A stretch of 50,255 nucleotides of DNA from a virus. The notes below the pieces were generated by a model, which saw nothing but the letters and a program-made list of their open reading frames with translations, was not told the origin of the DNA and ran no database searches. The position numbers were made by a program, and so were the translations under genes. Position 1 is the stretch's first letter; each line of letters opens with the position of its first letter. This document shows positions 15,292-48,168 of the stretch, piece after piece. Location of the stretch: positions 1 to 50,255 of IMG/VR virus record IMGVR_UViG_3300050821_009614; one strand, written 5' to 3'.

Positions 15292-15294
15292 CGG

Positions 15295-17055: not shown

Positions 17056-17292
17056 TACCACGGGGCCTCCGTGCTGCGATCAAACTCGACAGAGCAACGC
17101 GGACAGCGAATCGTCATGCGAAGAATTTTGCTCAACAGCCAGCCGGCGGGCGTGTCCCAGTCCGCAAACTGGCCGCAATCGGCGCATCGGCGCTTGATGA
17201 CTGCGAACGTGAACGAGCACGCCAGCGCGATCAAAAGCGACGATAAACACGATGTCGAGCATCAGGTACGACTCAGGTGATCCGATTTTCAT
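17055..17292 (-). pseudogene. frameshifted single-TM zinc-ribbon protein
   Basis: The ATG at 17292 starts MKIGSPESYLMLDIVFIVAF, then the frame changes character. Removing one T from TTTT (minus strand; AAAA at 17233-17236) gives one coherent 78-aa protein: a continuous membrane segment 'LMLDIVFIVALIALACSFTF', then 'IKRRCADCGQFADWD', and 'TIRCPRCSVEFDRSTEAPW' ending at TAA that overlaps the portal start. The CxxC...CxxC pairs form a zinc ribbon. So the gene is either broken by one inserted base or the sequence has an error. The start overlaps the terminase stop (TAATG). Confidence 0.7.
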
Positions 17293-18920
17293 TACGCGGC
17301 CCCCGCAAGTGCGACGTCGTTATCGAGCTCGATCGCCAGCCGCAGCGCCATCTCCAGCGCGTCGGGGCCGTCGTCGTGGTCTCCCGTGAACAGGTCGCGC
17401 ATCTGGTTGACCAGCATCAGCGTGCCCGGCGAGCGGGTCTTAAACCGGAACAGGCGGCGGGACAGGTACGGACCCAGCCGGCGGATGCGGACTTCTTTGC
17501 GGACCACGTTCACGATTTCGTAGATCGGCAGCATGATCCCCTGCAGCTGGGACTCGCGGAGGAAGTCGCCCGCGAGCAGTTCCTGGAACTGGTTGGTCTC
17601 GATGGCGAAGCCCTGGCAGCCGGGAAAACGCCTGTAAACGTCGATCCCATCGTCCACGATCTTGGCCACGTCCCGCCGCTCCAAATCGGCCTCCACGTAC
17701 AGGATGCCGTCACGCGCGCGGGCCAGCTTGACGATGGCCGAGTAGTCGCCGCGTCGCGCGTCGCGTCCCTTGGACGGATCGAGGGCCATGACTTTGAGCG
17801 TGAGCGTCTTGGCGTCGGGCCACTGCTCGAACCAAATGCGATCGTCGTCCAGCCATTCGCTGGGGAACTCGCAGGCTTCGGGATTGACGGGGTTGCCTTG
17901 CTTCTCCGACTCAAACGCATTCCGCCCTTCCCGCACGCGCATCTGCATCAGCTCGTACAGGCTCTCCTGTTCCGGCCAGAGCAACACGGCGCCTTCATCC
18001 ATCTGTTGCTTGTTTCGCTCATAGAACTCGCGGGCCTCGTCCTGATAGCGGGGGTTTTGAATGTCCGTATAGATCGTTTCCCACTGTGCCCACAGCTCCA
18101 TGTGCTTGGGCCATTGCTCGATGGCCTGGAACAGGTCGTGAGCCCAGCCGGGCGTACGTGCGAGCGTCAGCGGCAGGCATTCACGATGCAGCACGGTTCC
18201 CAACACCAGGACGTTCGTGTCCTTGTTGCCGCATTTCATCAATGCCCGGTTGAACCAGGAGCGCGCTCGCTCGCGTTGCCTGGGAGAGAAAATGTGGTCG
18301 TCGTTCTCCAAGTCGTCAGCAACAATTAACGATGGGCGGTGCTGTTTGCGTCGACGTCCACGGATTTTGTTTCCGGTGCCCAAGGCGTCCACGGCCACTC
18401 CGTTTCTGGCAACAATACGATTAGTTCGCCAAATACTGCCGATGCCGCAAGCACCTGGATAGGCGTCAGCGAGGGCCGAGTTTGTTTCGAGTTCATTCTT
18501 GATCGCCTCCAGGAAGGTATAGCTCTGGTCGGCCGTGTCGGACGTCAGAAAGATGTAAGTCTCCACGTGCTCGCAGATGCACTTGAGCACGTAGGTCAGC
18601 GACACGAACGTGGACTTGGCCGAGCCGCGGGGAGCGATGATCACCCGGCGCGTGCCGCGGGCTGAATGCATGCACGAAATTGTTTCGCTCACCGAGCGGT
18701 GCATGCGGGAAGGCGCGCGATCGTAGTAATGCGGCAGAAACCGCTTGCCCCAGTCCAGCACGCTGTCGCTGACTTCTGTGGTTGGCGGGCACAGCTGCTC
18801 GCGAAATGAGCCAACGACGTCATTGAGGTCTTCGTTGGAGAACAGATTCCCAAGAGAGCCCAGGTCGACGGACCCGACTTCTTCGCGAAGCTCTTGAATG
18901 AGGGTGTTACTCTGTGGCAT
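17292..18920 (-). CDS. terL: terminase large subunit, 542 aa
   Basis: Packaging motor with ATPase and nuclease domains. Walker A is 'APRGSAKSTF' at about residues 96-105. Walker B is 'LIVADDLEND' at 198-207. A coupling-type motif 'VLGTVLH' follows. The RuvC-like nuclease has 'ALDPSKGRDARRGDYSAI' near 385-402, 'AIETNQFQELLAGDF', and 'TGDHDDGPDALEMAL' near the end. The gene overlaps the small subunit candidate by 14 bases and is directly followed by the zinc-ribbon gene and portal. The identification is firm. Confidence 0.95.
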   Translation of the reverse strand: MPQSNTLIQELREEVGSVDLGSLGNLFSNEDLNDVVGSFREQLCPPTTEVSDSVLDWGKRFLPHYYDRAPSRMHRSVSETISCMHSARGTRRVIIAPRGSAKSTFVSLTYVLKCICEHVETYIFLTSDTADQSYTFLEAIKNELETNSALADAYPGACGIGSIWRTNRIVARNGVAVDALGTGNKIRGRRRKQHRPSLIVADDLENDDHIFSPRQRERARSWFNRALMKCGNKDTNVLVLGTVLHRECLPLTLARTPGWAHDLFQAIEQWPKHMELWAQWETIYTDIQNPRYQDEAREFYERNKQQMDEGAVLLWPEQESLYELMQMRVREGRNAFESEKQGNPVNPEACEFPSEWLDDDRIWFEQWPDAKTLTLKVMALDPSKGRDARRGDYSAIVKLARARDGILYVEADLERRDVAKIVDDGIDVYRRFPGCQGFAIETNQFQELLAGDFLRESQLQGIMLPIYEIVNVVRKEVRIRRLGPYLSRRLFRFKTRSPGTLMLVNQMRDLFTGDHDDGPDALEMALRLAIELDNDVALAGAA

Positions 18921-19431
18921 TCGTTGTCTTCTTAGCCGGCGACAAACCCAGTCCCGCCAGCAAGTCCGAAAGTCGCGTGTCGATCTCTTTCCGCAAGGTG
19001 CTGTCCTTCACCACGTCGTTGATGACCTGGCTCAGGCTGAGCATCAGCATCAGCATTTGCTCGCGGGTAAAGCTGTCCGGTGTTCTGGCGGCGAACTCTC
19101 GCCACCACTTGCGCTCGAGCATCCAAGCCGACGCCCGCCACTGATCGTCGCCCTTGTAGAGTTTCTGCAGGTGGTGGTGCTTGCCTTCCGCTTCCGCCTT
19201 TTCGATCCGCGCCTTGAAGTCCGGGTGTCGCTTCGTGGTGTCGCCCAACATCATCAAGTCGGCGACCGAGCCAGACCGACCGATCAGCTTCATGGCGTCC
19301 GTGCGCGAGCCACCGACCCGCAGGCAGCGGAGAATGACCCTTTCCTCGGCCACGCCAATCGTCTGGACGCGATCCGAGCCCTTCCTGCGATAGGCTGCCC
19401 CGGCGTCTGTTTTTGGCTTCTGCTTGGCCAT
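18907..19431 (-). CDS. probable terminase small subunit, 174 aa
   Basis: Begins MAKQKPKTDAGAAYRRKGSD at 19431; the ORF is open upstream but this ATG gives the usual start type. It has a basic N-terminus, an HTH-like stretch 'ERVILRCLRVGGSRTDAMKLI', 'HPDFKARIEKAEAEGKHHHL', and 'RASAWMLERKWWREFAARTP', a pattern seen in phage terminase small subunits, then an oligomerisation helix 'MLMLMLSLSQVINDVVKD'. It lies directly upstream of terL and would recognise pac or cos DNA. Confidence 0.75.
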   Translation of the reverse strand: MAKQKPKTDAGAAYRRKGSDRVQTIGVAEERVILRCLRVGGSRTDAMKLIGRSGSVADLMMLGDTTKRHPDFKARIEKAEAEGKHHHLQKLYKGDDQWRASAWMLERKWWREFAARTPDSFTREQMLMLMLSLSQVINDVVKDSTLRKEIDTRLSDLLAGLGLSPAKKTTNATE

Positions 19432-19453
19432 AGCCCACAAGAACACTAAGGTT

Positions 19454-19831
19454 TCAACCACCTGCAAAGATCGACGTGCCGTCCGTCGGGAAAATGTTGA
19501 TCTGGTAATCTGTGCCCGTGCAGGGGAAGTGCTCTAGCGCCCCCGCGTTGTTCACGATGAACCAGGCGTAGAACTTGCCCGGACTGGCCACGTCGGCCGA
19601 CTGCCATTCGTAAGCCACGATCCCCTCCGCTGCGTTGATGATCAGCGCGCCGGCGTTGGCGATCGTAGGGACGGGCGGACTCGACGGAATCGCTGGCACC
19701 ATCCGAAACGCCACGGTCATGCCGGTCAGGTTCATCGGCACCTTGTTGCCGTTCGTGTCGGTCACGAACAGCTGAGCCGTGGGCAGCTTCAGCAGGTCGC
19801 CGACCGAGAAACTTTGGACGTTTGACGCCAT
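19454..19831 (-). CDS. BppU-like baseplate/receptor-binding N-domain protein, 125 aa
   Basis: Single beta-sandwich-like domain: 'LFVTDTNGNKVPMNLTGMTV', 'AFRMVPAIPSSPPVP', 'INAAEGIVAYEWQSADVASP', 'GKFYAWFIVNNAGALEHFP'. This alternation of D-x-x-G and strand motifs resembles the N-terminal domain of BppU-type proteins that attach receptor-binding parts to the tail. It overlaps the next gene upstream by one base. The assignment is by pattern, not search. Confidence 0.6.
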   Translation of the reverse strand: MASNVQSFSVGDLLKLPTAQLFVTDTNGNKVPMNLTGMTVAFRMVPAIPSSPPVPTIANAGALIINAAEGIVAYEWQSADVASPGKFYAWFIVNNAGALEHFPCTGTDYQINIFPTDGTSIFAGG

Positions 19832-21432
19832 TACCGCACGGCCCCCGTGTTCACCAAGGCGTCATTCGAGATCAGGGCCAGTGCGTCTTCCTGGAGTGAG
19901 ACCCAGGGAAGATCCTCGATCCAGATACTGGCCGGCGCGTGGTTGTTGTAGATCGGGACCGGATACATCGTCTTGAGGTCAGCCGTCACGAACGACGCCA
20001 GGAAGAACGAGTCAGCTCCCGTGCCGGTGTCGGTCACGCTGTCGATGATCGTGGCCTGCAGGATGTTGTCGCTGCCCACACCGGCGTCAGTGAGCGAGTA
20101 CGTGATCACGGTGCCCAGCGAGTCCGTGCCGGTGAGCGTGTCGACGAACGGCACGAAGGCCGTAAGCCCCAGCACGTCCACTCCCACCGCGGCAATGCTG
20201 TCGACCAGGGAGATGGGCAACTCTTGTCCGGCAACGTCCGCCCCGGAACTCGCGTCAGCCCATTCGTTGCCGACGCCGACGGACATGGCATCCAGGCCAA
20301 CCGATGATTCGGAGTAGACGTTGATCGGAACGGCTGTCAGCGTGTCGAGCCCCGAGCCCGTGTCGAACTGTGCCAAACCGCCGAAGAACGTGGTTTCCGT
20401 GCCTGTGCCAGTGTCCGTATCCATGAACGTGGCGATGGTGCTTTCGCCATCGTTGGCCGTCATCACGTCGGAGAGCAGGATTGAGCCGGAGAGGCTTTCC
20501 GTGCCCAGTCCCACGTCGATCGCCAGGCTGTCGACCAGCGGGAACGCGTCTGTTGCGGAGCCCGTATCGATGCCGAACGACAGCTGCAGGTCGAACTCGG
20601 TTTCCGTACTCGAGCCCGTGTCCGTAACCGACAGAGCAATCGAGGCGACTTCGGTTCCGCTCGACGTGTCGGTGGCCAGCGAGTCGAGCACCGGGAAGAC
20701 ATCGGCGGCAGCGCCGCTGTCTGGATAAGAGACCGAGACCAGCGGGTAGGTGCCGACCCCAACATAGAGCAGCCCGTTCCAGACGTAGACTTCGGGGCCG
20801 TCGTTGGCGGAAGTGGCGTCAGCCAACGGCAGATTGAGGGTCGGGGCTGCGTCTGCTCCGGTGCTTGAATCAGCGAACGACTGCTGCCAGACAATCGAGG
20901 TGGTGTCTGAGCCTGAGCCGGTGTCGGCGAGGGAGACTGGGGTGCCGCTGGTCGTATAAGTGACCGTAATCAGCAGCCCGAAATAGTTTCCGCTCGAATC
21001 ACCGCCCATCGCCGTTTCGACGACCACCCGAAAATTATTCCAGAGGGACGGCGTCGAGTTGTTGATGGTCAGTGCGGTTGGCCCAGACGTGATCTCTGAT
21101 CCGCTGGTGGTCGTGATCTTGCTGGACATCGACGCGAGGAGCGTTGCGCCGGTGCTGTCGTAAATCTTCAAGAGAAAGTCGGAGGTCGCTTTGCTGGTCG
21201 CCTGCCATTTGGCTGTATAGGTGGCGCCAGAAATTGCCGTGATAGTGCCGGTATTGAATGTGCAGGCGCCGATGTAATTGTTCGTGCCGCCCGTGCCAGA
21301 CGCCTGTGTGATGTAATGCGTGCCGTCGCCCGCACCACCCGATGCCGAAAGCACGCCCCAGAAATTGGACCCAGTTGTTGTCCAATCTGTTGTGGTGATG
21401 TCGCTGCTAGGAACGACGTTTGAGCTGGGCAT
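19831..21432 (-). CDS. repeat-rich tail fibre-like protein, 533 aa
   Basis: Probably an adsorption fibre or decoration protein. The N-terminal ~160 residues look like a carbohydrate-binding-type beta-sandwich (WTTTGSNFWGVLSASGG ... NNFRVVVETAMGGDSSGNY). From about residue 169 to 475 an acidic unit of the type D-[TS]-G-[TS]-G-x-[DE] recurs about 17 times, spaced 15-25 residues apart. The C-terminus is a short hydrophobic segment 'YNNHAPASIWIEDLPWVSLQ'. Such Asp/Gly repeats may bind Ca2+ or form a fibrous stalk. The call is inference from composition and its place next to the BppU-like gene. Confidence 0.65.
   Translation of the reverse strand: MPSSNVVPSSDITTTDWTTTGSNFWGVLSASGGAGDGTHYITQASGTGGTNNYIGACTFNTGTITAISGATYTAKWQATSKATSDFLLKIYDSTGATLLASMSSKITTTSGSEITSGPTALTINNSTPSLWNNFRVVVETAMGGDSSGNYFGLLITVTYTTSGTPVSLADTGSGSDTTSIVWQQSFADSSTGADAAPTLNLPLADATSANDGPEVYVWNGLLYVGVGTYPLVSVSYPDSGAAADVFPVLDSLATDTSSGTEVASIALSVTDTGSSTETEFDLQLSFGIDTGSATDAFPLVDSLAIDVGLGTESLSGSILLSDVMTANDGESTIATFMDTDTGTGTETTFFGGLAQFDTGSGLDTLTAVPINVYSESSVGLDAMSVGVGNEWADASSGADVAGQELPISLVDSIAAVGVDVLGLTAFVPFVDTLTGTDSLGTVITYSLTDAGVGSDNILQATIIDSVTDTGTGADSFFLASFVTADLKTMYPVPIYNNHAPASIWIEDLPWVSLQEDALALISNDALVNTGAVR
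20005..20928 (-). repeat. about 17 degenerate D-[TS]-G-x-G-x-[DE] repeats
   Basis: In the fibre-like protein, residues ~169-475. Examples are DTGSGSD, DSSTGAD, DTGSATD, DTDTGTGTE, DTGSGLD, DASSGAD, DTLTGTD, DAGVGSD and DTGTGAD. The units are degenerate at DNA level, so they are old and kept by selection rather than recent tandem copies. Confidence 0.8.
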
Positions 21433-21834
21433 TTAGAAGTGCCTCAGCGCATTGGGATCGTTGGGGAATGCCGTCGCATCGATCGGCACAATTTCCCAGT
21501 CATTTTCCTCCAAGAACCGGTCGCGGTTGGCCAGCCTGGCGGCCATCGTGTCCTCTTGCGGCCCAACCACAGTGGCGACCACGGGCACCGGCCGACTGAT
21601 GATGAACGCCTGCATGTGGGCGGCGTGGGGTCCGGTGAAAGTGTTCGCACACATCCACTTCGTCGGGGCGCCCTTGCTGCCTTTGGGTCTCAGCGGAGTT
21701 GGCAGCATTTCAGCTACGGTCACCCGCGAATGCGGATTGATGAGCACGTGCCACTCGACACAAAGCGGCCGAGCCACCGGCGCTTCTTCGGCCGTCGCCA
21801 CAATACAAACCGTAAAAAGCTGTGAACTATTCAT
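21433..21834 (-). CDS. hypothetical protein, 133 aa
   Basis: Starts MNSSQLFTVCIVATAEEAPV at 21834 and stops one base before the fibre-like gene. It contains 'VEWHVLINPHSRVTVAEML' and 'MQAFIISRPVPVVATVVG', mixed alpha/beta, and ends with 'LEENDWEIVPIDATAFPND'. No domain is recognised. It is the first leftward gene beyond the divergent glycosyltransferase gene, separated from it by only 41 bases. Confidence 0.55.
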   Translation of the reverse strand: MNSSQLFTVCIVATAEEAPVARPLCVEWHVLINPHSRVTVAEMLPTPLRPKGSKGAPTKWMCANTFTGPHAAHMQAFIISRPVPVVATVVGPQEDTMAARLANRDRFLEENDWEIVPIDATAFPNDPNALRHF

Positions 21835-21875
21835 CGCGCGCGTGCGTTAGGATGGTCTGGGGGAGGGTTGGGACA

Positions 21876-23102
21876 ATGTCGCGTTCTACGATCTTTGGTT
21901 ACATTGCCTACATGTTGGCATTCCTCGGCGCCGCGAAGGCGTGCTATCTCGCAGGCACTACACCCGAGCTATTCGGAGCCGACGAGCTTTTTCACTTCGA
22001 CCTCGTGTCGCACTATTCACAGTTGGAGACTCCCCGGTCGTTCGTGGGGCTCACGCTGGAAGCCGGCCGGCACATCAACTCGCCGATCCCCCTGGTCAAT
22101 CACGAGTCCCTTGAGCCGCCGCTTTACTACGCGATCGCCGGCGCTTGGCATGCGGTGGGCCAGATCGCCGTTGGCCTCAACCGAATGCCGTTGTGGGACC
22201 GTCTGCTTTCCGCCGCGTTCGCGTTTGCGGCCGTCATCGTTGGCTGGCTGGTCGGCAGAGAGATTTTCCCCGGAGACGACTTTCGGCAACTTATCGTCCC
22301 GGCCGTCATTGCGATCATTCCGCAGCGCGACCTTTGCATGGTGAGTGACGATTCCCTTGTGCCGTTGTGTGCGGGGCTCGCTTTGCTGGCGCTCCTCAAA
22401 TACGCAAAGGTGCCGACGATCGGAGCCGCCATCTGCGCCGGTCTCGGATGTTCCGCGCTGCTCATGACAAAGACCACGGCCCTTCCGATTGCCTGCATCG
22501 CGCTCGCGGCTTATGCGTGGATCTCTCTTAAGAAAATCGATCGCCGCTCGCTCGCAGTTCTCGTCGGACTCGTGCCGCTCGCCGCTTGGTGCGCTTGGAA
22601 TCTGGCAACCATCGGCGAACTGACCGGCGCGAATGCTAAGATGCACCAGCTCGGATTCTCGGCCAAGCCGGTGAGCGCTTGGGGCGCGCACGCCCTGTTC
22701 ACGGCGGGAGGCGCTTGGACGTTCTGGAAAGAGCTGAGCGTTTCGTTTTGTCGCGGCGAACTCTCTCCAGAGGGAAGCGTCATACCACGCTTCGACTGGG
22801 CTTTCATCGGAGTCGTCAGCGCCGCGTTGGTTGGCGGATGCTATCGAGTTGCCCGCGATCGCCAACTTGGACTGGCGGTCTGCCTCTCTGCGTTTGTGGC
22901 CAGCGTTGCATTCGTGGCCTGGGCCAGCGTTCGCACAGATTTTGGGGTGATCGGAATGCCGTCTCTCTGGCTGCAATTCCCTGGATTCTCGAATGGGCGC
23001 CTGATCGCCGGCGCTTTGGTGCCGTTCGCGGTTCTGTGCGCAAGCCTGTTGCCGCGCGCCGTCGTCGCCCACGACGTGCAGGCAGCTTTGGCCAAGCAGT
23101 GA
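21876..23102 (+). CDS. GT-C/DUF2142-like integral membrane glycosyltransferase, 408 aa
   Basis: I chose ATG at 21876 because GGGAGGG lies nine bases upstream. The protein has about 9-11 hydrophobic segments. After the first one comes the loop 'GADELFHFDLVSHYSQLETP' with an Asp-Glu pair (residues 36-37) as in PMT/ArnT/DUF2142 transferases, and then 'EPPLYYAIAGAWHAVG', also typical. Such enzymes use lipid-linked sugars to modify surface polymers. It is the only plus-strand gene between 0.3 and 41.7 kb and is followed by a terminator, so it is probably an independently expressed moron that changes the host surface in lysogeny. Substrate is unknown. Confidence 0.75.
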   Translation: MSRSTIFGYIAYMLAFLGAAKACYLAGTTPELFGADELFHFDLVSHYSQLETPRSFVGLTLEAGRHINSPIPLVNHESLEPPLYYAIAGAWHAVGQIAVGLNRMPLWDRLLSAAFAFAAVIVGWLVGREIFPGDDFRQLIVPAVIAIIPQRDLCMVSDDSLVPLCAGLALLALLKYAKVPTIGAAICAGLGCSALLMTKTTALPIACIALAAYAWISLKKIDRRSLAVLVGLVPLAAWCAWNLATIGELTGANAKMHQLGFSAKPVSAWGAHALFTAGGAWTFWKELSVSFCRGELSPEGSVIPRFDWAFIGVVSAALVGGCYRVARDRQLGLAVCLSAFVASVAFVAWASVRTDFGVIGMPSLWLQFPGFSNGRLIAGALVPFAVLCASLLPRAVVAHDVQAALAKQ

Positions 23103-28746: not shown

Positions 28747-29276
28747 TGCTCTCTCCGGGGATTGGCTTTGGCTCTCGACACGATGCTGATGAACGCTTCG
28801 CGGTCGCCGGGGTTGTAACCGACGGCTTTATCGAACTCTCGACCCTGCGGGTCCTGGTAGCAAATCTCCGGGACTTCCGCCGGCCGTTCGTATCCGTCCC
28901 ACCTGGCCTCGTCGACCACGTACAGCCAGAACCAGACGCCGTGCACGCGGACGCATTCGGTGCCGTGGCTATCGACCGTTCGAAGCTCGGCATTGCGACG
29001 GAGCTCATCCATCAGCCCGCAGCAGTTGCTGCACCACGACACGCCGTAGACGAGAACGTGATTCGTCACGCCGCGACGTTCGGGCGGGCGGGGAGTGACG
29101 CGGAACCACGGACGTTCGGAGTCGACGCTTCCTACCCGATTCGGGTTCGGGATCGGGTCGCGAACGACGTCCTGCCCGTGGGCCACCCGGACAGCCAGCG
29201 CCAGCGTGGCGATCGCCCACAGGACCACGATCACTTTGAGGGCAAACTCCCACCAGCCTGTGCGAGGTGCGTTCAT
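28743..29276 (-). CDS. membrane-anchored thioredoxin-like protein, 177 aa
   Basis: Starts at the ATG at 29276, which overlaps the protease stop (ATGA). N-terminal anchor 'FALKVIVVLWAIATLALAVR', then a periplasmic-type domain with a W-C-x-x-C motif 'VSWCSNCCGLMDELRR' (residues 79-94) and 'TNHVLVYGVS' as the preceding strand. The C-terminal part has 'ARWDGYERPAEVPEICY', with a Pro that could be the cis-Pro strand. The WCxxC is typical of thioredoxin-like reductants, here CSNC. It would be the membrane partner of the secreted CIPC protein encoded next to it. Function as a redox pair is inference. Confidence 0.7.
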   Translation of the reverse strand: MNAPRTGWWEFALKVIVVLWAIATLALAVRVAHGQDVVRDPIPNPNRVGSVDSERPWFRVTPRPPERRGVTNHVLVYGVSWCSNCCGLMDELRRNAELRTVDSHGTECVRVHGVWFWLYVVDEARWDGYERPAEVPEICYQDPQGREFDKAVGYNPGDREAFISIVSRAKANPRREQ

Positions 29277-30166
29277 ACGATCACCTCGTCGTCGCCGCCG
29301 TGGTCGATCGGATCCGGGTCGCCCCCGAAGTCTTCCTGATGCGAGAAGCCGACACATTCCACTTCGCCATGGCCGACGAGCGACATGAGGTATTCGAACG
29401 CTTCGGGCTCAAGGTAGAAATGGCCGTGGTGGCCCCACTGGTCGGTCCACGAGTTGTCGCCGCCGATGTAGGCCCGTTCGCCCGTGCGCAGGCCCAGGGT
29501 TTCAGGCAGCAGGTAATGCGGCAGGCAGAGGGCGTGGCCGCCTTCCGGGGCGCGGGCGTCGGCCATCACCATCTGCTTGGTGAGGATGCCCGTGCAACTC
29601 TGGAAGTTCTTGCCAACCGGCATGCCGATGCCGAGCACGCCCACCGTGCCCAGATACTGAATCGCGTCCTCGTACGACGAGATGACGGAGTGGCTGCCGG
29701 TCTTGCACTTCAGGCCTTCGGCTCGCGCTTCTTCCGAAACGTCGGAGTCGTACTTGTTGCAGCTCTCGTCGGCCTTATCGAACGGCTTCTTCTCCCACGT
29801 AGCCAGCCCGTACCTCTTGGACGCTTCGGCCGCGGAGAAGATGGTCGCACCCTTGTCTTCGCCAACGCCAGACGGTTCCATGCAACGCTGGTTGTCGACA
29901 TAGGCCATCATCGCCGACATGCGGGGCGGCTCTTTCCGCCATCGGTTCTGGATGCCGAGCAAGTAGCGAACCACCGAGGCCCGCATTTCACCCGAGCACA
30001 TGCCGATCCCGTCCTGGTCCTCGATCAGCGAGTGCTTTCGCTGGTCGACTTCCCGCGGCACCTTGTAATAGCGGTAGTGCGACAGGTCGAACCGCTGCTG
30101 CGTCCGCAACAAGCCGGCGTGGTTCTCGGCGGGTTGGTTCCATCCGTAGGAGAATTCGAAGCTCAC
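29273..30166 (-). CDS. papain-like (C1A) cysteine peptidase, 297 aa
   Basis: GTG start at 30166, overlapping the preceding stop (GTGA). Residues fit the papain order: Gln51 and Cys57 in 'EDQDGIGMCSGEMRA' (oxyanion Gln and nucleophile), His211 in 'PEGGHALCLPHYLL', and Asn238 in 'GGDNSWTDQWGHHGHFYLEP', matching the 'N-S-W-G-x-x-W-G-x-x-G-x-x' motif of C1 peptidases in outline. No signal peptide is visible, so export would rely on holin-type pores, as for endolysins. It sits among membrane and redox genes. A role in cleaving the host envelope or in virion maturation is inference; the peptidase family is well supported. Confidence 0.8.
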   Translation of the reverse strand: MSFEFSYGWNQPAENHAGLLRTQQRFDLSHYRYYKVPREVDQRKHSLIEDQDGIGMCSGEMRASVVRYLLGIQNRWRKEPPRMSAMMAYVDNQRCMEPSGVGEDKGATIFSAAEASKRYGLATWEKKPFDKADESCNKYDSDVSEEARAEGLKCKTGSHSVISSYEDAIQYLGTVGVLGIGMPVGKNFQSCTGILTKQMVMADARAPEGGHALCLPHYLLPETLGLRTGERAYIGGDNSWTDQWGHHGHFYLEPEAFEYLMSLVGHGEVECVGFSHQEDFGGDPDPIDHGGDDEVIV

Positions 30167-37844: not shown

Positions 37845-38856
37845 CGTCCCGTTCTCCGATCTTGTAAATGCGTTTAGGAGTCTTTCTCGTCGAGTTAGGC
37901 TTGTCATTTCCAAATCCAATTCCCGTTCCAACAACGTCGTTGCCGGTCAGGTCCACGAACACGCTCAGCCGCTTCTTAATTGTCTTTGCCGTCTCTTCCA
38001 CGGACGCCAGGCGGTCCAGCCACTTTGCGGGGCTGCCGAGCATCTCAGGCACGTCCATGTCCGCCACTGGGCACTTGTGCGACACGGGGCAGATCCGGCA
38101 CTTCTCGGCCGTCGGTCGCGTCTCGGCCTTGGCGGGAATGGCGTCTTTCCAGCGCAGCCAGTCTCCGATCGCGGACAGCACGCGGGATTCGATTGGCTTC
38201 AGGCGGTCGCGGCGAAACTCGGTCGCCCAGCTCGGACCGTTGCTGCGACGGCTCCAGATCCGCGTGCGAAGCGCCTGAATCTCGGGGTAGTTCCCGAACA
38301 CCAGAAGGGCGTGCAACTGAAACTGGAACGATTCCTGAACGCTCTCCGGGCTCCACGGCTTCCAGCCCGTTTTCCAGTCCATCTCCTCAATGACTTCCGG
38401 GCTCGCGGTCGAGTAGAGCACGTCGAGTTCGCTGGTCACGCGCACCGTCTGATCGGCCACCGTGAAATCCAGTGAGAGCTGTCCGCTGCGATCCCCGCGC
38501 CCCCCGTCAAACCTGAGAATGTTTGATGCGTGGAGACGCCAGAGCCAATCGGAGAACGGCCAGACCGATGATGCGAACGCCTTGACGACTTGAGGCTGCA
38601 CATCGGGACGCGCCGCACGGAGGTTCGTGTGTAGCTCTTCCTGGATCACCTTTCGGTCCATCGATCCGCCGGAACCGATGTAAAGATCGATTGCGTCGCT
38701 GATCGCCTTGTGGACTTCTTCCCCGACCACAGCAATTTCACCAACAGTGCGGCCGATCCCCGACTCCCGCAGCAATGACTGCGCTGGGCAGTTGCAGAAG
38801 CCTTCCAGTGTGGACCGATCGACGGTTAAAACATCGTCTTCGATTTCGAGGGGCAT
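37816..38856 (-). CDS. Cas4/RecB-like PD-(D/E)XK nuclease with Cys cluster, 346 aa
   Basis: Begins MPLEIEDDVLTVDRSTLEGF at 38856. Motifs for the PD-(D/E)XK superfamily: 'GEEVHKAI' (His49), 'TSELDVLY' (Asp145), 'EEMDWKTGWKP' (Asp160 and Lys162) and 'SFQFQLHALL' (Gln180). Cys at the start ('GFCNCPAQ') and at the end ('CRICPVSHKCPV') match the 4Fe-4S cluster pattern of Cas4 and AddB-type nucleases. It likely degrades DNA ends for recombination or repair. It lies next to a Rad52-like gene, a typical phage recombination pair. Confidence 0.78.
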   Translation of the reverse strand: MPLEIEDDVLTVDRSTLEGFCNCPAQSLLRESGIGRTVGEIAVVGEEVHKAISDAIDLYIGSGGSMDRKVIQEELHTNLRAARPDVQPQVVKAFASSVWPFSDWLWRLHASNILRFDGGRGDRSGQLSLDFTVADQTVRVTSELDVLYSTASPEVIEEMDWKTGWKPWSPESVQESFQFQLHALLVFGNYPEIQALRTRIWSRRSNGPSWATEFRRDRLKPIESRVLSAIGDWLRWKDAIPAKAETRPTAEKCRICPVSHKCPVADMDVPEMLGSPAKWLDRLASVEETAKTIKKRLSVFVDLTGNDVVGTGIGFGNDKPNSTRKTPKRIYKIGERDDDGDSDADE

Positions 38857-39785
38857 CCCGGCTCTCCTGATTGTGGCGTGGGTTCCGGAGCGCGGCCCAT
38901 GCCGCTCTCTTCGTCGAGCATCCCGTGGGCGAAGTCGATCTTTTTGACGTTCCACGACGACAGGCTACGGCTCTTGTTGGGATCCGCCACTCCAGCCGCC
39001 TGAGCGAATCGCGCCCAAGCCAGTTCGTCGTCTGGCGACTTGCCGTTGCCCGAGCGAATCGCTTTCCAGCGGTCAACGAGGCCCTTGAGCTGTTCGACCG
39101 TGGCCCGCTCGGAGCGCGCATGGACCTTGGGCTTGGTTTCGTCCGGCGTGGGATTGCCGTGTTGCTCCGGCTGACCGAGCGCCCCTTCCTCAAGATCCTG
39201 CGTAAATAGGTCGGTTAGCGCCCACGCGCTGAGCACGGCATCGACGTGAGCGCACTTCTTCGCCATCTTGATCGCATTGTTCGCGTCGCCTCCCTTGTCC
39301 CCGACCTTTCGGATTCCGCGGCCTTCGCCGAGCAATTCGCCCGTCGCCCTCGAATAGAGGTGGCACGCGAAAACAAAGGTTCCGTCCGGCTTGCCGAGTT
39401 GGCGCCATGCCATCAGGTCGGCCTTGTATTCATCGCGCGCCCCCATGAGGTCGCACACGAAATTTGCGCCGGCCTTGTAAAGCGAGGGCTTGGGAGTCCA
39501 CTGCTTGGGGTTCACGACGTCGTCGCGATTCTTGCGACTGTTCCAAACCAGGAAATTCCCTTCTCCGTCCGTCCGCGGCGTGAGCCCCGGCGGGAACCCG
39601 AAATGGATTCCTTCGACCAGGTGCGATCGCAGCCAGTCACGGAACGCCTTGCGCCGCTCGGAATACTCCGCCAGGCCGGCCCGCATCGTCTCGACGGGCA
39701 TCAGCATGAAGCCGGCGCGCATGTCTCGCAGTGGCCCGGTCGGGATGGAAATTGCTGTCGTTTCAATGATCTCACCGTTGGCCAT
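38826..39785 (-). CDS. Rad52-like single-strand annealing protein candidate, 319 aa
   Basis: Begins MANGEIIETTAISIPTGPLR at 39785. The core has 'KPSLYKAGANFVCDLMGARD', 'HLYSRATGELLGEGRGIRKV' and 'NNAIKMAKKCAHVDAVLSAW' then 'ALTDLFTQDLEEG'. This last segment ('N-x-A-x-K-M-A-x-K-R-A-x-V-D-A') is shared with a phage family that I believe is related to Rad52-type annealing proteins. The C-terminal ~110 residues contain a charged region 'SERATVEQLKGLVDRWKAIR'. It is encoded beside a Cas4-like exonuclease. Annealing role is inference. Confidence 0.6.
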   Translation of the reverse strand: MANGEIIETTAISIPTGPLRDMRAGFMLMPVETMRAGLAEYSERRKAFRDWLRSHLVEGIHFGFPPGLTPRTDGEGNFLVWNSRKNRDDVVNPKQWTPKPSLYKAGANFVCDLMGARDEYKADLMAWRQLGKPDGTFVFACHLYSRATGELLGEGRGIRKVGDKGGDANNAIKMAKKCAHVDAVLSAWALTDLFTQDLEEGALGQPEQHGNPTPDETKPKVHARSERATVEQLKGLVDRWKAIRSGNGKSPDDELAWARFAQAAGVADPNKSRSLSSWNVKKIDFAHGMLDEESGMGRAPEPTPQSGEPGCPSKSKTMF

Positions 39786-41281: not shown

Positions 41282-41647
41282 TTACCATTCCCGGCGTCTC
41301 ACCTGGCTGGCGATGTCCAACCGGATCTTGCCCGCGAACATCGTCACGTCGCCCCTGTGGTCCACCTCGACGGTCGCCACGACTCCGGCATCCGGACGCG
41401 CGATGTCGAAGACGTTGGCCATGACGTTGCGCTGCGCGACTTTGCAGCCGTGGTCGCCCTGGAAGTCGTCGGCCAAGTCCCGCAGCAGATTGGCCAGCGT
41501 GCCGGCGTGCAGCTTGGACGCGCGACCGACGAAGGCCGTGCCATCGGTGAGCACCTTCCACCGCAGCCCGATATGACGGACCAACGCCGCAGCCGTGGAC
41601 TCGGGGCCGTTCACTGCGACCGGGGCGATGCGCTTGCGTTGCAGCAC
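41282..41647 (-). CDS. hypothetical early protein, 121 aa
   Basis: I start it at GTG 41647 (GGAG, seven bases upstream). A GTG at 41767 is open too but lies upstream of the predicted transcription start and within an operator, so I reject it. Begins VLQRKRIAPVAVNGPESTAA, with 'ALVRHIGLRWKVLTDGTAFV', 'SKLHAGTLANLLRDLADDFQ' and 'VATVEVDHRGDVTMFAGKIR'. First gene of the leftward operon behind P_L. Function unknown. Confidence 0.6.
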   Translation of the reverse strand: MLQRKRIAPVAVNGPESTAAALVRHIGLRWKVLTDGTAFVGRASKLHAGTLANLLRDLADDFQGDHGCKVAQRNVMANVFDIARPDAGVVATVEVDHRGDVTMFAGKIRLDIASQVRRREW

Positions 41648-41758
41648 GATTCGTCTCCGTGTGGTCCACCACGGATTCCGCCAGCGGGGCGGAGAAGCGG
41701 GTGGTACTTGTTTGGCCTGAGGCGTGTCGGATCGGCTATCAAACCGATCGACGGCCTG

Positions 41759-41787
41759 ATGATACACTAAAGTGTAGTATCGGACAA
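41759..41787 (-). promoter_or_regulatory. P_L: leftward promoter with operator in the spacer
   Basis: On the minus strand -35 TTGTCC (41787-41782), a 17-base spacer, and -10 TATCAT (41764-41759), matching consensus at 4/6 and 5/6. The spacer contains the palindrome CACTTTAGTG, and -10 follows it directly. Transcription would start near 41752, 105 bases before the 121-aa gene. The same layout is present in the repressor's own promoter. Confidence 0.68.
41763..41776. promoter_or_regulatory. operator O1 (TACACT-AA-AGTGTA)
   Basis: TACACT-AA-AGTGTA has perfect 6-base arms. The arms extend into a wider inverted repeat, GATAC...GTATC. It overlaps the spacer and -10 of P_L, so bound repressor should block leftward transcription. 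Its likely ligand is the small HTH repressor at 42369-42635. Confidence 0.7.
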
Positions 41788-41795
41788 GGGCAAAA

Positions 41796-41824
41796 TTGAC
41801 ATAAATCGCCTTGTTCTGCTAAAT
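41796..41824 (+). promoter_or_regulatory. rightward promoter upstream of the tRNA-Val half
   Basis: TTGACA (41796-41801, full consensus), 17-base spacer, CTAAAT at 41819-41824 (or TAAATT with an 18-base spacer). It would read through the 5' tRNA-Val half (41889-41928), the 59-aa gene and perhaps the repressor. No operator copy overlaps it. In an integrated phage it could drive the restored host tRNA. Confidence 0.5.
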
Positions 41825-41888
41825 TGACGCAAGCCGTTACCGACGCTTCGGTTCGGCTCTCTCTTATGTGCGGGCAACCGCAACGCTT

Positions 41889-41928
41889 GGTCGCTTAGCT
41901 CAGTTTGGTTAGAGCGCCACGTTGACAT
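41889..41928 (+). other. 5' half of tRNA-Val(GAC); putative attP core
   Basis: This 40-base stretch matches positions 1-38 of a bacterial tRNA-Val: acceptor GGTCGCT, TA, D-stem GCTC / GAGC around AGTTTGGTTA, anticodon stem CCACG, loop TTGACAT with anticodon GAC. The match ends exactly at the end of the anticodon loop: the next bases are GCCTG instead of CGTGG, and no T-arm follows. A lone 5' half in a phage with integrase nearby suggests an attachment site. The gap 41929-42037 holds no visible gene. Confidence 0.65.
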
Positions 41929-42037
41929 GCCTGCAAGCCGGCTGCCCACAACGGCGCCCTCGTTCTGAGCCCATCGACCGCAACGCCGCTTTCGTCGCGC
42001 GCTCGAAAACCAGTCCAGATTGTGAGGGGCACTCCGA

Positions 42038-42217
42038 ATGGCGCAGTCACCGTCAAACACACCACACCTCGACAAGATCAAAGACCTCGAATCATCCTCT
42101 TCCGGAGACATCAAAGAAATCTGCGGCGCGATCATTGAGCTGCAAGGCCTGATGCGATCGATCGCCGAAGAGGAAGCCGCGGAAGCCGCTAGTAAGGTCG
42201 TCGCGAGGGCGGGCTAA
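42038..42217 (+). CDS. small acidic helical protein, 59 aa
   Basis: ATG at 42038 has GAGGGG eight bases upstream. The product is MAQSPSNTPHLDKIKDLESS, then 'GDIKEICGAIIELQGLMRSI' and an Ala/Glu-rich end 'AEEEAAEAASKVVARAG'. Helical, acidic, one Cys. It lies between the tRNA half and the repressor and may be an anti-repressor or partner; this is a guess from place. Confidence 0.6.
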   Translation: MAQSPSNTPHLDKIKDLESSSSGDIKEICGAIIELQGLMRSIAEEEAAEAASKVVARAG

Positions 42218-42251
42218 ACGGCGCCTTCCAAAGAAATATCTGCGGCAGTCC

Positions 42252-42308
42252 GCGTCGCTCGCGAGACGACGCACGGGTGATTGGTACTTGAGCCCGCTAT
42301 CAAGGGCT
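42252..42308 (+). other. two hairpins in the repressor leader
   Basis: GCGTCG-ctcgcgaga-CGACGC (42252-42272) and AGCCC-gctatcaa-GGGCT (42291-42308). They lie in the 151-base gap before the repressor and upstream of its promoter, so may terminate the rightward transcript from 41796. Confidence 0.35.
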
Positions 42309-42331
42309 GTCGCAGATTCTTGTCTTTGATC

Positions 42332-42360
42332 TTGCGGATTGCAACACCAAAGTGTATTAG
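42332..42360 (+). promoter_or_regulatory. promoter of the repressor gene, operator in the spacer
   Basis: -35 TTGCGG (42332-42337), 17-base spacer, -10 TATTAG (42355-42360). The spacer ends CACCAAAGTG, so the -10 directly follows the operator half-site, as in P_L. The start codon of the repressor lies 9 bases after the -10, suggesting a leaderless or very short-leader transcript, or a weak promoter. Confidence 0.55.
42343..42356. promoter_or_regulatory. operator O2 (AACACC-AA-AGTGTA)
   Basis: Matches O1 at 12 of 14 positions (AACACCAAAGTGTA against TACACTAAAGTGTA). It overlaps the spacer and -10 of the repressor promoter, so the repressor should control itself here. Its left arm is less perfect than O1, which predicts weaker binding. 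Confidence 0.6.
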
Positions 42361-42368
42361 ATGGAAGC

Positions 42369-42635
42369 ATGATTGCCGTGCTCACGGAAGCCGAAGCCAA
42401 AAAGATCGTAGCGAAAAACGTGGTCAGCCGTCTCGACGAGCTGGGCCATTCCCGCTACTGGCTTGCCAAGCAAACGGGCGAGCATCAGAGCACGATCGGA
42501 AACGTCTGCCATGGGAAGAAATGCTGCAGCGCGGCACTCTTGGCTCGCATTGCTGAAGCCATCGGCCTGACTCCCAACGATCTTCTCGATAGAAAAACTT
42601 CCCGCAATTCAAAAAAACCAGCGAAGAGCACTTGA
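42369..42635 (+). CDS. Cro/CI-like HTH repressor, 88 aa
   Basis: Starts MIAVLTEAEAKKIVAKNVVS at 42369. The five-helix XRE fold is seen in 'SRLDELGHSRYWLAKQTGEH' and 'QSTIGNVCHGKKCCSAALLA', with recognition helix around 'HQSTIGNVCHGK', then 'RIAEAIGLTPNDLLDRKTSR'. It is only 88 aa, so there is no LexA-like peptidase or long dimerisation domain: it resembles Cro or a short CI. It sits between O2 (upstream) and O3 (downstream). A basic, disordered C-tail ends 'NSKKPAKST'. Binding to the three operators is inference. Confidence 0.8.
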   Translation: MIAVLTEAEAKKIVAKNVVSRLDELGHSRYWLAKQTGEHQSTIGNVCHGKKCCSAALLARIAEAIGLTPNDLLDRKTSRNSKKPAKST

Positions 42636-42659
42636 CGCGCTACACTAAAGTGGTGTAGT
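42632..42659 (+). promoter_or_regulatory. rightward promoter toward integrase
   Basis: TTGACG (42632-42637) with a 16-base spacer and TGTAGT (42654-42659). The -35 overlaps the stop codon of the repressor. Spacer and -10 contain O3. It would transcribe a 230-base leader and then the integrase. Confidence 0.5.
42641..42657. promoter_or_regulatory. operator O3 (TACAC-taaagtg-GTGTA)
   Basis: TACACTAAAGTGGTGTA contains the O1 core CACT-AA-AGTG followed by one extra G, and also TACAC / GTGTA as perfect outer arms. It overlaps the spacer of the promoter at 42632. One inserted base relative to O1 could change affinity, giving a graded response across O1, O2 and O3. Confidence 0.6.
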
Positions 42660-42660
42660 G

Positions 42661-42890
42661 TCTCCCGCGTCGTCGAGTTTGATAGCTCGGCGATGAACGG
42701 TTTGTAACAAGTACCGCCTCTCGTCCCCGCTACTTTGCGTGGGCCTGTCGCGGTTGCGACGGAACATCCGGCATAACCGCGATTCACCAATCCGCGTTTT
42801 TGCCGGAAGCTGGAGCGCGCTGAGGGATGCGAGCGCATTTTCACGGGATGATCGCAAACTTTGGCATCGGATGCCGATCGGCATCCCGCC
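42661..42890 (+). other. integrase leader with two inverted repeats; no gene seen
   Basis: The 230 bases have no convincing gene. They contain CGCGGTT (42749-42755) with AACCGCG (42775-42781), a perfect 7-bp pair, and the 18-base perfect palindrome GGATGCC-GATC-GGCATCC at 42869-42886, five bases from the integrase ATG. The latter could hide the ribosome site in a hairpin or be a protein-binding site for control of integrase. Confidence 0.5.
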
Positions 42891-43850
42891 ATGATTTCGG
42901 CTCATTTTGCTGTCCGTCAGGCCTCAGAAAATTTCTACATCCCATCTGTTCCGGGGCTCTCGTCGGCAACCAGGCGCAAGCTGAACCACCAGTGGAATCG
43001 GTGGGAGCGCTCAACGTCCAACCCTGCGATCCAGCAAATTGGCCGGCAGACGTTCGCCGATTTCCGCGCCGCTGGGCTGGAAGCAAAGCTGTCGCCTGTA
43101 ACGATCGAGGGCGTTGTCAGCGACGTTCGAACAGTCCTGAAATCCTGCGTCGACGCTGGAATTCTGGATGCACTTCCGCCCCCAGGCAGGAGGCTTCGTC
43201 GAATCGATCGCGTCAAGGCGACGCCATCGGTCGAAGATGTTTCACGGATGATCGCGCGGGCAAACTGCGCCACATGGCCCCGGCATCCCAGAGTGACCGC
43301 GGCCGATTGGTGGCGATGTTGCTTGGGGGCGGCTTTCTTCACCGCACTGCGGAGGACCGATCTTCTGATTCGGCCAATCGCCGATTTTCGTGGCGAGTCG
43401 TTCTCAATTACTCAAGAGAAAACCGGCCGCGTCGTGACCGTTCCGAATCACGACGTGCTCCGCAAGCTCGCCAAAAAAATGCCGCTGGAAAGTCTCGGCG
43501 GACTTGGATCCGCAAAACAACAGCGACGCGAGCTGAAGCGAATCTGCGAAGCCGCGAGTGTCGGGCCGTTTACTCTGCAATCGATTCGTCGCTGTGCGTC
43601 GCGGTCATGGGAACGAGCGCGAGCGGGTTGCGGTCCACTAATTCTCGGACACGCAATTCGCGGAGCGGCGCGATTCTATCTCAGCCCGGACGAGATTCTA
43701 TTCGAGGCCGTTTCGCGCCTCGATTATCCCGACGCGCTCGGCAAGCCGAAGGTTGCGCGGGACGAGCCACGACTGCTCAAGGCGTTCCGTCGGTTGGACG
43801 CAAAAGAGGCCGCGAAGGCTGTTCGGCTCGTCGAGTCGTTGGGCGACTGA
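42891..43850 (+). CDS. int: tyrosine recombinase (integrase), 319 aa
   Basis: Catalyses integration and excision. From the ATG at 42891, an N-terminal SAM-like core-binding domain is seen to residue ~110 ('ATRRKLNHQWNRWERSTSNP'). The catalytic domain has Arg154 in 'FTALRRTDLLIR', Lys177 in 'TQEKTGRVVTV', an R-box 'FTLQSIRRCASRSW' with Arg233, His254 in 'LGHAIRGAARFY' and the nucleophile Tyr263. The first His of the usual H-x-x-R is Gln230. A TTG at 42861 would add ten residues, but no ribosome site supports either start well. It is next to the tRNA-Val half, its likely target. Confidence 0.87.
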   Translation: MISAHFAVRQASENFYIPSVPGLSSATRRKLNHQWNRWERSTSNPAIQQIGRQTFADFRAAGLEAKLSPVTIEGVVSDVRTVLKSCVDAGILDALPPPGRRLRRIDRVKATPSVEDVSRMIARANCATWPRHPRVTAADWWRCCLGAAFFTALRRTDLLIRPIADFRGESFSITQEKTGRVVTVPNHDVLRKLAKKMPLESLGGLGSAKQQRRELKRICEAASVGPFTLQSIRRCASRSWERARAGCGPLILGHAIRGAARFYLSPDEILFEAVSRLDYPDALGKPKVARDEPRLLKAFRRLDAKEAAKAVRLVESLGD

Positions 43851-43863: not shown

Positions 43864-44091
43864 ATGACGCTCACCGATCGCGACAACGTCCTGGACTGCA
43901 TCGCGAAGGGCCGGCACGTTTCGCTCTCTGGTGAAGAGCACTGGGCGTCTAGGTTGAGCGCCGATCAGGTTTTGGAAATCCGCCGGCTGCGCCTCGAAGG
44001 GATGCCTTACACCGAAATCGCCCCGCTGTTTTCTATATCGGCGACAACCGCGAGGGACGTGGTCACGCGTACGTGGAGGCACGTAGCGTGA
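43864..44091 (+). CDS. small HTH protein, possible excisionase/regulator, 75 aa
   Basis: ATG at 43864, 14 bases after the integrase stop. It begins MTLTDRDNVLDCIAKGRHVS, has 'SGEEHWASRLSADQVLEIRR' and 'EGMPYTEIAPLFSISATTAR' then 'DVVTRTWRHVA'. This is the HTH pattern found beside HNH endonucleases and in resolvase-like small DNA-binding proteins. Next to integrase it may be the directionality factor. This is inference. Confidence 0.62.
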   Translation: MTLTDRDNVLDCIAKGRHVSLSGEEHWASRLSADQVLEIRRLRLEGMPYTEIAPLFSISATTARDVVTRTWRHVA

Positions 44092-44186: not shown

Positions 44187-44258
<72 letters not shown>

Positions 44259-46206: not shown

Positions 46207-46392
46207 ATGCTCGTGCTTAGCAGAAAGAAAGGCGAAGAGATCGTCATCGACGAAAACATCACGATCAGCATCGTGGAGATCCGCGGCGACAAAGTCCGTT
46301 TGGGCATCACGGCGCCACGCGAGACGCCCATTCACCGTGCCGAAGTCTTCGAGCGGATCCGTGCCGGCGAAACGGAACGGCGTGAACCATGA
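46207..46392 (+). CDS. csrA: CsrA-family RNA-binding regulator, 61 aa
   Basis: MLVLSRKKGEEIVIDENITI, then 'SIVEIRGDKVRLGITAPRET' and 'PIHRAEVFERIRAGE': the complete CsrA fold with R/K in the first strand and the core 'GxxVRLGIxAPxxxxVHRxEV/Y'. CsrA dimers bind GGA motifs in mRNA leaders and change translation or stability. The leader AAAGGGAGAACGG before its ATG includes a GGA, so autoregulation is possible. A phage copy could reprogram host gene expression. Identification is firm; role in the phage is inference. Confidence 0.93.
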   Translation: MLVLSRKKGEEIVIDENITISIVEIRGDKVRLGITAPRETPIHRAEVFERIRAGETERREP

Positions 46393-46752: not shown

Positions 46753-47068
46753 AACCCGCTGACATCCCCATCCACTTCACCCATGCCGAGCTGGGAGCCG
46801 TCAGCGCGCGGCTTGTCTTCCTGGCCACGCACCCACGCTGCGAACCGCGGGTCGGCGAGCTGTGCGAATGGATGCTGCCCCGCTTGGCAAAGAAGCTGGC
46901 CGGGCCCGGCGACACGTTGACAGCCACGTGCTCAGCCGAGGCGTGGGGCAAGTTGGTCAGTGCGCTGTCCTCGGGCGAAGCGGGCGGCGTGGCCAAAGCC
47001 ATGTGGCAGGCGTGTGACAAGATTCGGGGGGCGTGTGCGATGCAGCAACAGGGGAGGGCGCAAGATGA
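46749..47068 (+). pseudogene. TTG-start helical gene with likely single-base frameshift
   Basis: TTG at 46749 (GGGGGAAGG upstream) overlaps the previous stop. The product 'KPADIPIHFTHAELGAVSAR', 'EPRVGELCEWMLPRLAKKLA', 'AEAWGKLVSALSSGEAGGVA' looks protein-like until the run of six G at 47026-47031. As given, the frame then runs on to 47450 through dnaN with Arg-rich noise. With a seventh G the frame becomes GGVCDAATGEGAR and ends at TGA 47066-47068 overlapping the dnaN ATG. I infer an indel in the homopolymer, either real or a sequence error. Confidence 0.55.
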
Positions 47069-48168
47069 AAGTCCAGTTCAAACTCAAACCGCTTGCCGAG
47101 GCGCTCGAGGTGGTTCGGCGCGCAGTTCCGAGCAAGACGGACAAAGAAGTCCTGAAGTACGTGAAGCTCGACGCGGATGCGCTGTCCGTGAGGCTTGCGG
47201 CCACCGACGGTGTGACCGGCGTGGTCTGCGAAGTGTCAGAGGCGATTGTCGAGTCACAGGGCGCGGCGCTGCTGTCCATGCGGGCCACAGAGGCCCTTCG
47301 CAGGCTGAGCGGCGACGATGTGACGATCGAGTTCGATGGCGACCACGTGAAGATTGCCGGGGGAAGCGACCGCTTCAAGCTGCAAGGCGCCGATCCTTTC
47401 GAGCACCCGCCAATCGGCTTCGACGCCGGGCCCAACAAATTCGACATTGAGTCGGACGTGCTGTCCCTCGGGCTTCGTCTGGCCACTGTGGCTTCCGACA
47501 AGAAGCCAGGCAGTCGATACGCGCTGGAAGGCGTCCACTTCGACTGCCAGGACGACGAGCTGATCCTGGTCGCGACCGACACCCACGTAATGACGGCGTT
47601 TCGCACAAAGGCGAAGGTCGAAAAATGGCCCGGCAGCGTGACGATTCCCGCAAGAGCCGTGTCGGCCGTCCAGTCAGCCATCAAGGCCAACGGCGGGACT
47701 GTGTCGGTCTGCATCGGCGATTCTCAGGCGTCGTTCCGCGTCGGCACCATGTCGGTTGTCACGCGGCTCCTGGACGGCCGATTCCCGAAGTGGCGCATCT
47801 TCCCGAACAAACACAAGGTCGCCGCCCAGTCGGTCGCTGGGCCGTTGTTGTCGGCGATTGAGCGGGCGTCGCTGCTCACCGAGGAAGATTCCCGCGGCGT
47901 GGACTTCGGGTTTGGCCGCGATGTGCTGACGCTCAAGACGCAGTCGGCCGACGTTGGCGAGTCGGAGATTTCGCTGCCGATCGTGCTCACTGGCGAGCCG
48001 CTCGAAATGCTGATCGATCCCCGGTGGTTCGCACTCTTTCTCAAGGAACTTCCACCCGAACAGTCCGTGCGTCTTGAGATGCTCGATGCAGACCATGCGG
48101 CGACGGTGAAGCTCGATGCCGATCCGCGCGTCGAATTCATGGTGATGCCGCTTAGCAGGATGAGGTGA
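47065..48168 (+). CDS. dnaN: DNA polymerase III beta subunit (sliding clamp), 367 aa
   Basis: Starts MKVQFKLKPLAEALEVVRRA at 47065, with GGGAGGG about 14 bases upstream and a weaker site nearer. Full-length three-domain clamp, 367 aa like bacterial DnaN (~366). Key segments include 'LLSMRATEALRRLSGDDVTI', 'YALEGVHFDCQDDELILVAT', 'DTHVMTAFRTKAKVEKWPGS', 'VTIPARAVSAVQ', 'FPKWRIFPNK' and a C-terminal 'DPRVEFMVMPLSRMR' corresponding to the 'MPMRL' end with which clamp ligands bind. It should tether the host or phage polymerase. A phage clamp is uncommon but known. Confidence 0.92.
   Translation: MKVQFKLKPLAEALEVVRRAVPSKTDKEVLKYVKLDADALSVRLAATDGVTGVVCEVSEAIVESQGAALLSMRATEALRRLSGDDVTIEFDGDHVKIAGGSDRFKLQGADPFEHPPIGFDAGPNKFDIESDVLSLGLRLATVASDKKPGSRYALEGVHFDCQDDELILVATDTHVMTAFRTKAKVEKWPGSVTIPARAVSAVQSAIKANGGTVSVCIGDSQASFRVGTMSVVTRLLDGRFPKWRIFPNKHKVAAQSVAGPLLSAIERASLLTEEDSRGVDFGFGRDVLTLKTQSADVGESEISLPIVLTGEPLEMLIDPRWFALFLKELPPEQSVRLEMLDADHAATVKLDADPRVEFMVMPLSRMR

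Follow-up and report, generated by a model that had tools for sequence, protein, structure and literature searches.

A probable immunity and integration region with repeated operators, shared leader hairpins and a tRNA-Val half in a tailed-phage genome

Genes at the locus and the probable 88-aa repressor

We analyzed an entire IMG/VR virus record of 50,255 bp (61% G+C), referred to here as the window. The record encodes tailed-phage proteins (tape measure, head morphogenesis, portal, terminase and capsid) and is possibly incomplete at its right end. Structural and recombination genes lie on the leftward strand, and the genes for a repressor, an integrase, a sliding clamp and replication proteins lie on the rightward strand. 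The region described here is located where the two blocks meet. Taken as a whole, it probably serves a temperate tailed phage for both immunity and integration. Its genes are:

41282 to 41647, leftward strand: gene 1 of the leftward operon, encoding 121 aa from a GTG that follows GGAG; without a family match
42038 to 42217, rightward strand: 59-aa ORF with a Shine-Dalgarno-like GAGGGG; no family match
42369 to 42635, rightward strand: 88-aa Cro/CI-type HTH repressor (P0001); HTH_3 7.4e-6, HTH_26 1e-5, and phrog_4583, transcriptional repressor, 1.5e-10
42861 to 43850, rightward strand: tyrosine-recombinase-like integrase, 329 aa; phrog_1 E 1.1e-8

An integrase in the same element is expected of a temperate-phage immunity region, and the phrog_1 match provides one; a profile search of this protein gave no Pfam or NCBIfam match. 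The 88-aa protein was the only HTH_3 match in the record. Its gene may start at ATG 42369 or, alternatively, at GTG 42378 behind GGAAG. A previous annotation made from the sequence (the first-pass annotation) described a repressor without a peptidase domain, and our profile search agreed: there is a single HTH domain in the 88 aa, and none of the C-terminal S24/LexA-like peptidase or oligomerisation domain that is characteristic of lambda CI-type repressors. The earlier statement that induction must differ from that of lambda is reasonable, but short repressors without a peptidase, such as P2 C, are well known.

Homologues of the 88-aa protein were found neither in viral contigs nor in genome contigs. 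Similarly, there were no relatives in viral contigs of the integrase or of the protein encoded at 38826-39776, and none of the sliding clamp in genome contigs. A search with the terminase yielded one identical contig, which is without the switch, and two short relatives at 51%. A single-sequence AlphaFold model was of poor quality (pLDDT 71), and the fold search gave nothing meaningful.

IMG/VR contig 3300021181_000045 (22,357 bp) is 100% identical over window positions 7295-22356. The start of this contig appears to lie at most 1 bp from the first base of the window, hinting that the genome really ends there or that both assemblies broke at this point.

Operators and promoters

We found three related palindromic sites in the region, and several predicted promoters on or near them. 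The sites have no strand assigned; promoters are given as the -35 hexamer, spacer length and -10 hexamer.

41763 to 41776: O1, a 14-bp palindromic operator, TACACTAAAGTGTA; unique within 3 mismatches in 50 kb apart from O2 and O3
42343 to 42356: O2 operator, AACACCAAAGTGTA; sequence match
42641 to 42657: O3 operator, TACACTAAAGTGGTGTA; sequence match
41759 to 41787, leftward strand: PL, TTGTCC-17-TATCAT, with O1 in the spacer; rank 3 of 100,418; also found by a consensus scan; predicted start 41752
41796 to 41825, rightward strand: PR, TTGACA-18-TAAATT, operator-free and divergent from PL; rank 1 of 100,418; also found by a consensus scan
42316 to 42344, leftward strand: P2L, TTGCAA-17-AAGAAT, adjoining O2; score 9.95, about 12th best in the window; predicted start 42308
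42332 to 42360, rightward strand: weak promoter of the repressor gene, TTGCGG-17-TATTAG; O2 spans its spacer and -10; rank 441
42632 to 42661, rightward strand: P3, TTGACG-18-TAGTGT, with O3 in the spacer; rank 4 of 100,418; predicted start 42668

The three sites had been recognized before, and a sequence scan confirmed their coordinates and cores. Within 3 mismatches, O1, O2 and O3 were the only matches to TACACTAAAGTGTA on both strands of the 50,255 bp (0.26 expected), and the next-nearest matches in the record required 4. That is, the motif scan that had been suggested as a check, with few other sites as the expected outcome, turned up no further match within 3 mismatches on either strand. 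All three operators fall within 880 bp. A comparable palindromic three-site family was present in 0.5% of simulated 2-kb regions (local composition, all near-palindromic words allowed) and arose in 2 of 20 whole-genome simulations. The promoter context makes a chance origin of the three sites much less likely.

Some details were different from those first described. O3 had been said to contain one inserted base; relative to O1 it has three extra bases (GTG). It can also be read without a gap, with the core CACTAAAGTG, zero extra bases, and GT replacing TA. O2 and O3 do flank the 88-aa gene, as had been claimed for all three sites, but O1 is ~590 bp upstream of the gene, separated from it by a tRNA fragment and the 59-aa ORF. 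The analysis did not support graded repression, which had been predicted from the quality of the operator arms and the supposed inserted base in O3; graded affinity is a guess from the sequence.

The exact 14-mer TACACTAAAGTGTA occurs at no fewer than 119 loci in viral contigs, and none of the loci listed encodes a relative of the repressor. We take these matches to be due to chance. Several low-GC viral contigs (L012, L034, L084, L113) have TACACTAAAGTGTA and a one-mismatch copy exactly 78 bp apart, probably an unrelated operator pair. We also considered a host LexA site, but the Planctomycetes LexA literature did not provide a motif that could be used.

We ranked promoters with a two-hexamer position weight matrix on both strands, at all 100,418 positions. 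The rankings support the earlier view of repeated operators inside promoters that face the leftward operon and the integrase/replication operon, and place these promoters among the best. The operators had all been placed inside promoters, and this holds well for O1 (rank 3) and O3 (rank 4) but less well for O2, whose rightward promoter is weak (rank 441). In the O1 and O2 promoters alike, the final two bases of the operator are also part of the -10. The strongest promoter of the genome, PR (41796-41825), had been missed.

O2 had been assigned mainly to the repressor's own promoter. In contrast to the rank of 441 for that promoter, the neighboring leftward promoter scores far higher and fits the shared module described below. 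If copy 2 of that module uses P2L, then O2 would be a divergent operator between the weak repressor promoter and P2L. The direction of P2L is antisense to the 59-aa ORF. The arrangement proposed here at O2, back-to-back promoters around one operator, is similar to that of lambda PRM/PR.

A repeated leader module

We found by repeat search that each operator is part of a larger module. The module is present in three copies and consists of the operator, a hairpin with loop (T)TTGATAG, and then CAAGTACC. These operator-linked 5' hairpins were overlooked in the first-pass annotation.

41726 to 41752, leftward strand: copy 1 hairpin, loop TTTGATAG; at the predicted 5' end; z -2.66
41703 to 41710, leftward strand: copy 1 box CAAGTACC; 54 nt from the operator core
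42291 to 42308, leftward strand: copy 2 hairpin, AGCCC-TTGATAGC-GGGCT; at the predicted leftward 5' end; 49-nt fold z -0.34, not significant
42283 to 42290, leftward strand: copy 2 box CAAGTACC; 54 nt from the operator core
42668 to 42695, rightward strand: copy 3 hairpin, 12-bp stem, loop TTTGATAG region; at the predicted 5' end; z -2.26
42708 to 42715, rightward strand: copy 3 box CAAGTACC; 55 nt from the operator core

In the operator-first orientation, TTGATAGC and then CAAGTACC follow within 90 nt in all three copies. In contrast, the opposite flanks of the operators share no 8-mer. A single shared 8-mer was seen in 14 of 20,000 simulations, and the leaders share two. TTGATAGC occurs four times genome-wide; the fourth occurrence, at 5293, has a stem of 1. 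The stems closing TTGATAGC have 7, 5 and 11 pairs in copies 1, 2 and 3, respectively, and differ in sequence between copies (p = 0.0026, 0.023 and 0.0004 when flanks were shuffled). Copies 1 and 3 fold better than shuffled sequences, whereas copy 2 as a whole does not.

In all three copies, a transcription start placed 7-8 nt past the -10 is the first base of the hairpin, for copy 2 only if P2L is used. The coincidence of starts with the hairpin at the usual spacing implicates a leftward promoter at O2, back-to-back with the repressor promoter. P2L and the copy 2 hairpin are the weakest of the set. In addition, the copy 2 box is ~5 nt from the loop word, compared to 21-24 nt in the other copies. 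That is, this box keeps its distance to the operator and not its distance to the hairpin or start, and a role of the box at the DNA level therefore fits better than a role in RNA.

As in phages with nut or put sites, the early leaders share an RNA element, here two 8-mers and the hairpins. In place of the two-stem put fold there is one hairpin here, and no boxA-like word was seen. A search of viral contigs with the leader pattern gave 8 matches, without operator or stem, approximately the number expected by chance. Rfam had no match above threshold on the switch, and an unfiltered search gave only noise.

A separate stretch of RNA upstream of the repressor gene is also strongly structured:

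42222 to 42345, rightward strand: structured RNA between the 59-aa ORF and the repressor gene; z -4.24, 0 of 200 shuffles

A perfect 13-nt inverted repeat, CAAGATCAAAGAC/GTCTTTGATCTTG, connects the 59-aa ORF (42073-42085) with the stretch before O2 (42322-42334), and the words CAAAGAAAT and ATCTGCGGC are also common to both. The 13-nt repeat may allow distant parts of the RNA to pair, and such pairing could regulate read-through into the repressor gene.

The tRNA-Val half and a model for the region

Between PR and the 59-aa ORF is part of a tRNA gene, which had also escaped notice in the first-pass annotation:

41889 to 41928, rightward strand: tRNA-Val(GAC) gene, 5' half only, running from the acceptor stem through the anticodon loop; 39 of 40 columns agree with the complete tRNA-Val found in viral contig L135

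We first spotted this half by comparison to an E. coli sequence, and then confirmed it against tRNA genes in public records. The match to the complete tRNA-Val has a single 1-nt indel. The half is 40 nt, from the first acceptor base through the last base of the anticodon loop, and was seen as one copy in the record. We also tested position 41889 for a complete tRNA and for one split by an intron, and rejected both. The half is probably the core of an attP of the rare 5' class, in which a 5' part of a tRNA gene ends at a known crossover subsite. Crossover in the anticodon loop is one standard class, but it is rare for an island to leave a 5' tRNA fragment, as 159 of 3919 do (PMC4383910). The partner of such an attP would be a tRNA-Val 3' half (CGTGGAGGTC...).

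In viral contigs L135 and L136, a Phage_integrase gene ends inside a tRNA-Val(GAC) gene on the opposite strand, indicating that other elements use this tRNA gene for attachment. In both integrases (L135 6142-7578 and L136 1-1491), the C-terminal residues VATGLEPVTSTMSTWRSNQLS are encoded antisense within this tRNA gene.

To carry a 5' tRNA half, a phage must provide a promoter for the restored tRNA, and PR, the best promoter in the genome, is 64 bp upstream of the half. There are 440 bp from the end of the tRNA half to the repressor ATG, which would place attP outside the repressor reading frame, unlike attP in BPs-type phages.

Based on the arrangement of sites, promoters, leaders and tRNA half, we favor a model with a single repressor, a leader signal and an attP in one immunity/integration region, and as a whole we consider this the probable explanation. 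The binding, transcription starts, RNA function, integration and all regulatory consequences in this model are predictions from sequence. The 88-aa HTH protein is most likely the sole lysogeny repressor; judging from the position of its gene, which is beside operators repeated in early promoters, it would recognize O1, O2 and O3, as a dimer. Bound there, it would block PL, and with it the leftward operon (recombination, packaging and structural genes), and P3, and with it the integrase and, if the operon continues, the replication genes. It would also block both promoters at O2, which diverge: the weak rightward one of its own gene, and P2L. The operator-controlled leader transcripts would each have a hairpin with the same loop at the 5' end, followed by CAAGUACC. 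This common leader signal would most likely function in processive antitermination, like nut or put, or in protection of the transcript.

PR is the likely establishment promoter on circular phage DNA; its rightward transcript would cross the tRNA-Val half, then the 59-aa ORF and the strong RNA fold, and run on towards the repressor gene. Integration would join the host tRNA-Val 3' half to PR, which would then drive the restored host tRNA, and would place the host tRNA promoter upstream of the repressor. O1 and O2/O3 would then be at opposite ends of the prophage, ~50 kb apart. We propose only tentatively, and with some doubt, that the switch is rewired by integration in this way and that a shared 5'-terminal hairpin of an undescribed type adds control at the level of RNA. 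If so, host tRNA and phage promoters swap jobs at integration, tying lysogeny to insertion while the repressor gene stays uncut, and a second, RNA-based layer of control is common to all of the repressor-controlled transcripts.

A simpler model, as in the first-pass annotation, has three operators, each in its own promoter, and O2 would serve the repressor gene alone; the other shared words would be relics of the duplication from which the operators arose. O2 does span the spacer and -10 of a promoter just 9 nt before the repressor ATG. In lambda, the cI message made from PRM is leaderless, and an analogous message could be made from the O2 promoter. However, that promoter ranks only 441st. 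In addition, just two 8-mers survive in otherwise diverged leaders, and pairing has been kept in stems of differing sequence, making relics unlikely. We consider the simpler model less likely than the single-repressor model, and the most plausible of the alternatives. It is slightly less plausible that the tRNA half is itself a relic, of an old recombination, and not a working attP. The integrase gene starts ~930 bp from the half, and integrases are often closer to attP; there is also a complete tRNA-Met downstream of the integrase. Still, the half is intact, has one indel relative to a complete gene, and stops exactly at the anticodon loop, a known crossover class.

Different identities for the proteins involved seem less probable again. 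The 88-aa protein is small, with one HTH domain, and could be a Cro-like or accessory regulator, or an HTH protein like the antitoxin of an addiction module, given a similarity to HigA antitoxins that is weak and falls short of the curated cut-off. The true repressor would then be unrecognized or outside the record, which is possibly incomplete at the right end. We think this improbable: the record has no other HTH_3 protein, no toxin-like neighbor was found, the best match is to a repressor family, and a position beside its own operators fits a master repressor. It is very unlikely that the repeats are recognized by a host regulator or, since they surround the probable attP, that they are arm sites for integrase or excisionase. 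Arm sites are usually clustered, but these repeats are palindromic, sit inside promoter spacers, and lie on either side of the core at distances of ~160 to 720 bp.

As proposed here, the region is like the lambda immunity region (OL/PL, OR/PR, PRM, nutL/nutR): operators lie in early promoters that diverge, the repressor would regulate its own gene, and the leaders of the early operons under repression have an RNA element in common. It differs in that the repressor is 88 aa without a peptidase or long C-terminal domain, and there is one operator per promoter (none further within 3 mismatches) rather than the three, bound cooperatively, per regulatory region of lambda. In addition, the integrase gene is directly downstream of the repressor under its own operator, the probable attP is inside the region, and the hairpin loop and box appear unlike boxA/boxB. 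In phage HK022, putL is just downstream of PL, putL and putR share sequence and structure, and the put RNAs are ~70 nt with two stem-loops (PMC9378689). In contrast, there is one short hairpin and a linear box here, in three copies that are always operator-linked. The region resembles lambda-type immunity and nut/put leaders, but lacks the CI domain and does not appear to have a known leader fold.

The region resembles integration-dependent immunity, as in mycobacteriophages BPs and Brujita, only in that the attachment site would lie in the repressor control region; in those phages, integration changes repressor expression (PMC4557955; PMC10865867). Their attP is part of the repressor reading frame and integration alters the protein, while here attP would be upstream and would change the promoter context only. 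The anticodon-loop crossover and the tRNA fragment in attP are also found in the tRNA-gene islands described with Islander (PMC4383910), but here the restoring promoter would be the strongest of the phage, one that diverges from a repressed early promoter.

Several other genes in the window are of interest. A complete tRNA-Met (CAT) gene is at 44187-44258, downstream of the integrase. The sliding clamp of DNA polymerase III (47065-48168; 367 aa from ATG) has only distant relatives in phages. A leftward gene at 29273-30166 encodes a papain-family cysteine protease-like protein (Pfam Peptidase_C1 E 1e-5). Adjoining the integrase gene, at 43864-44091, is a gene for a 75-aa HTH protein that resembles the C-terminal part of phage HNH endonucleases (phrog_6156) and is possibly a second regulator. 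Lastly, the phage encodes a CsrA at 46207-46392 (Pfam CsrA E 9.8e-25) with ~45% identity to plasmid csrA genes, possibly a post-transcriptional regulator.
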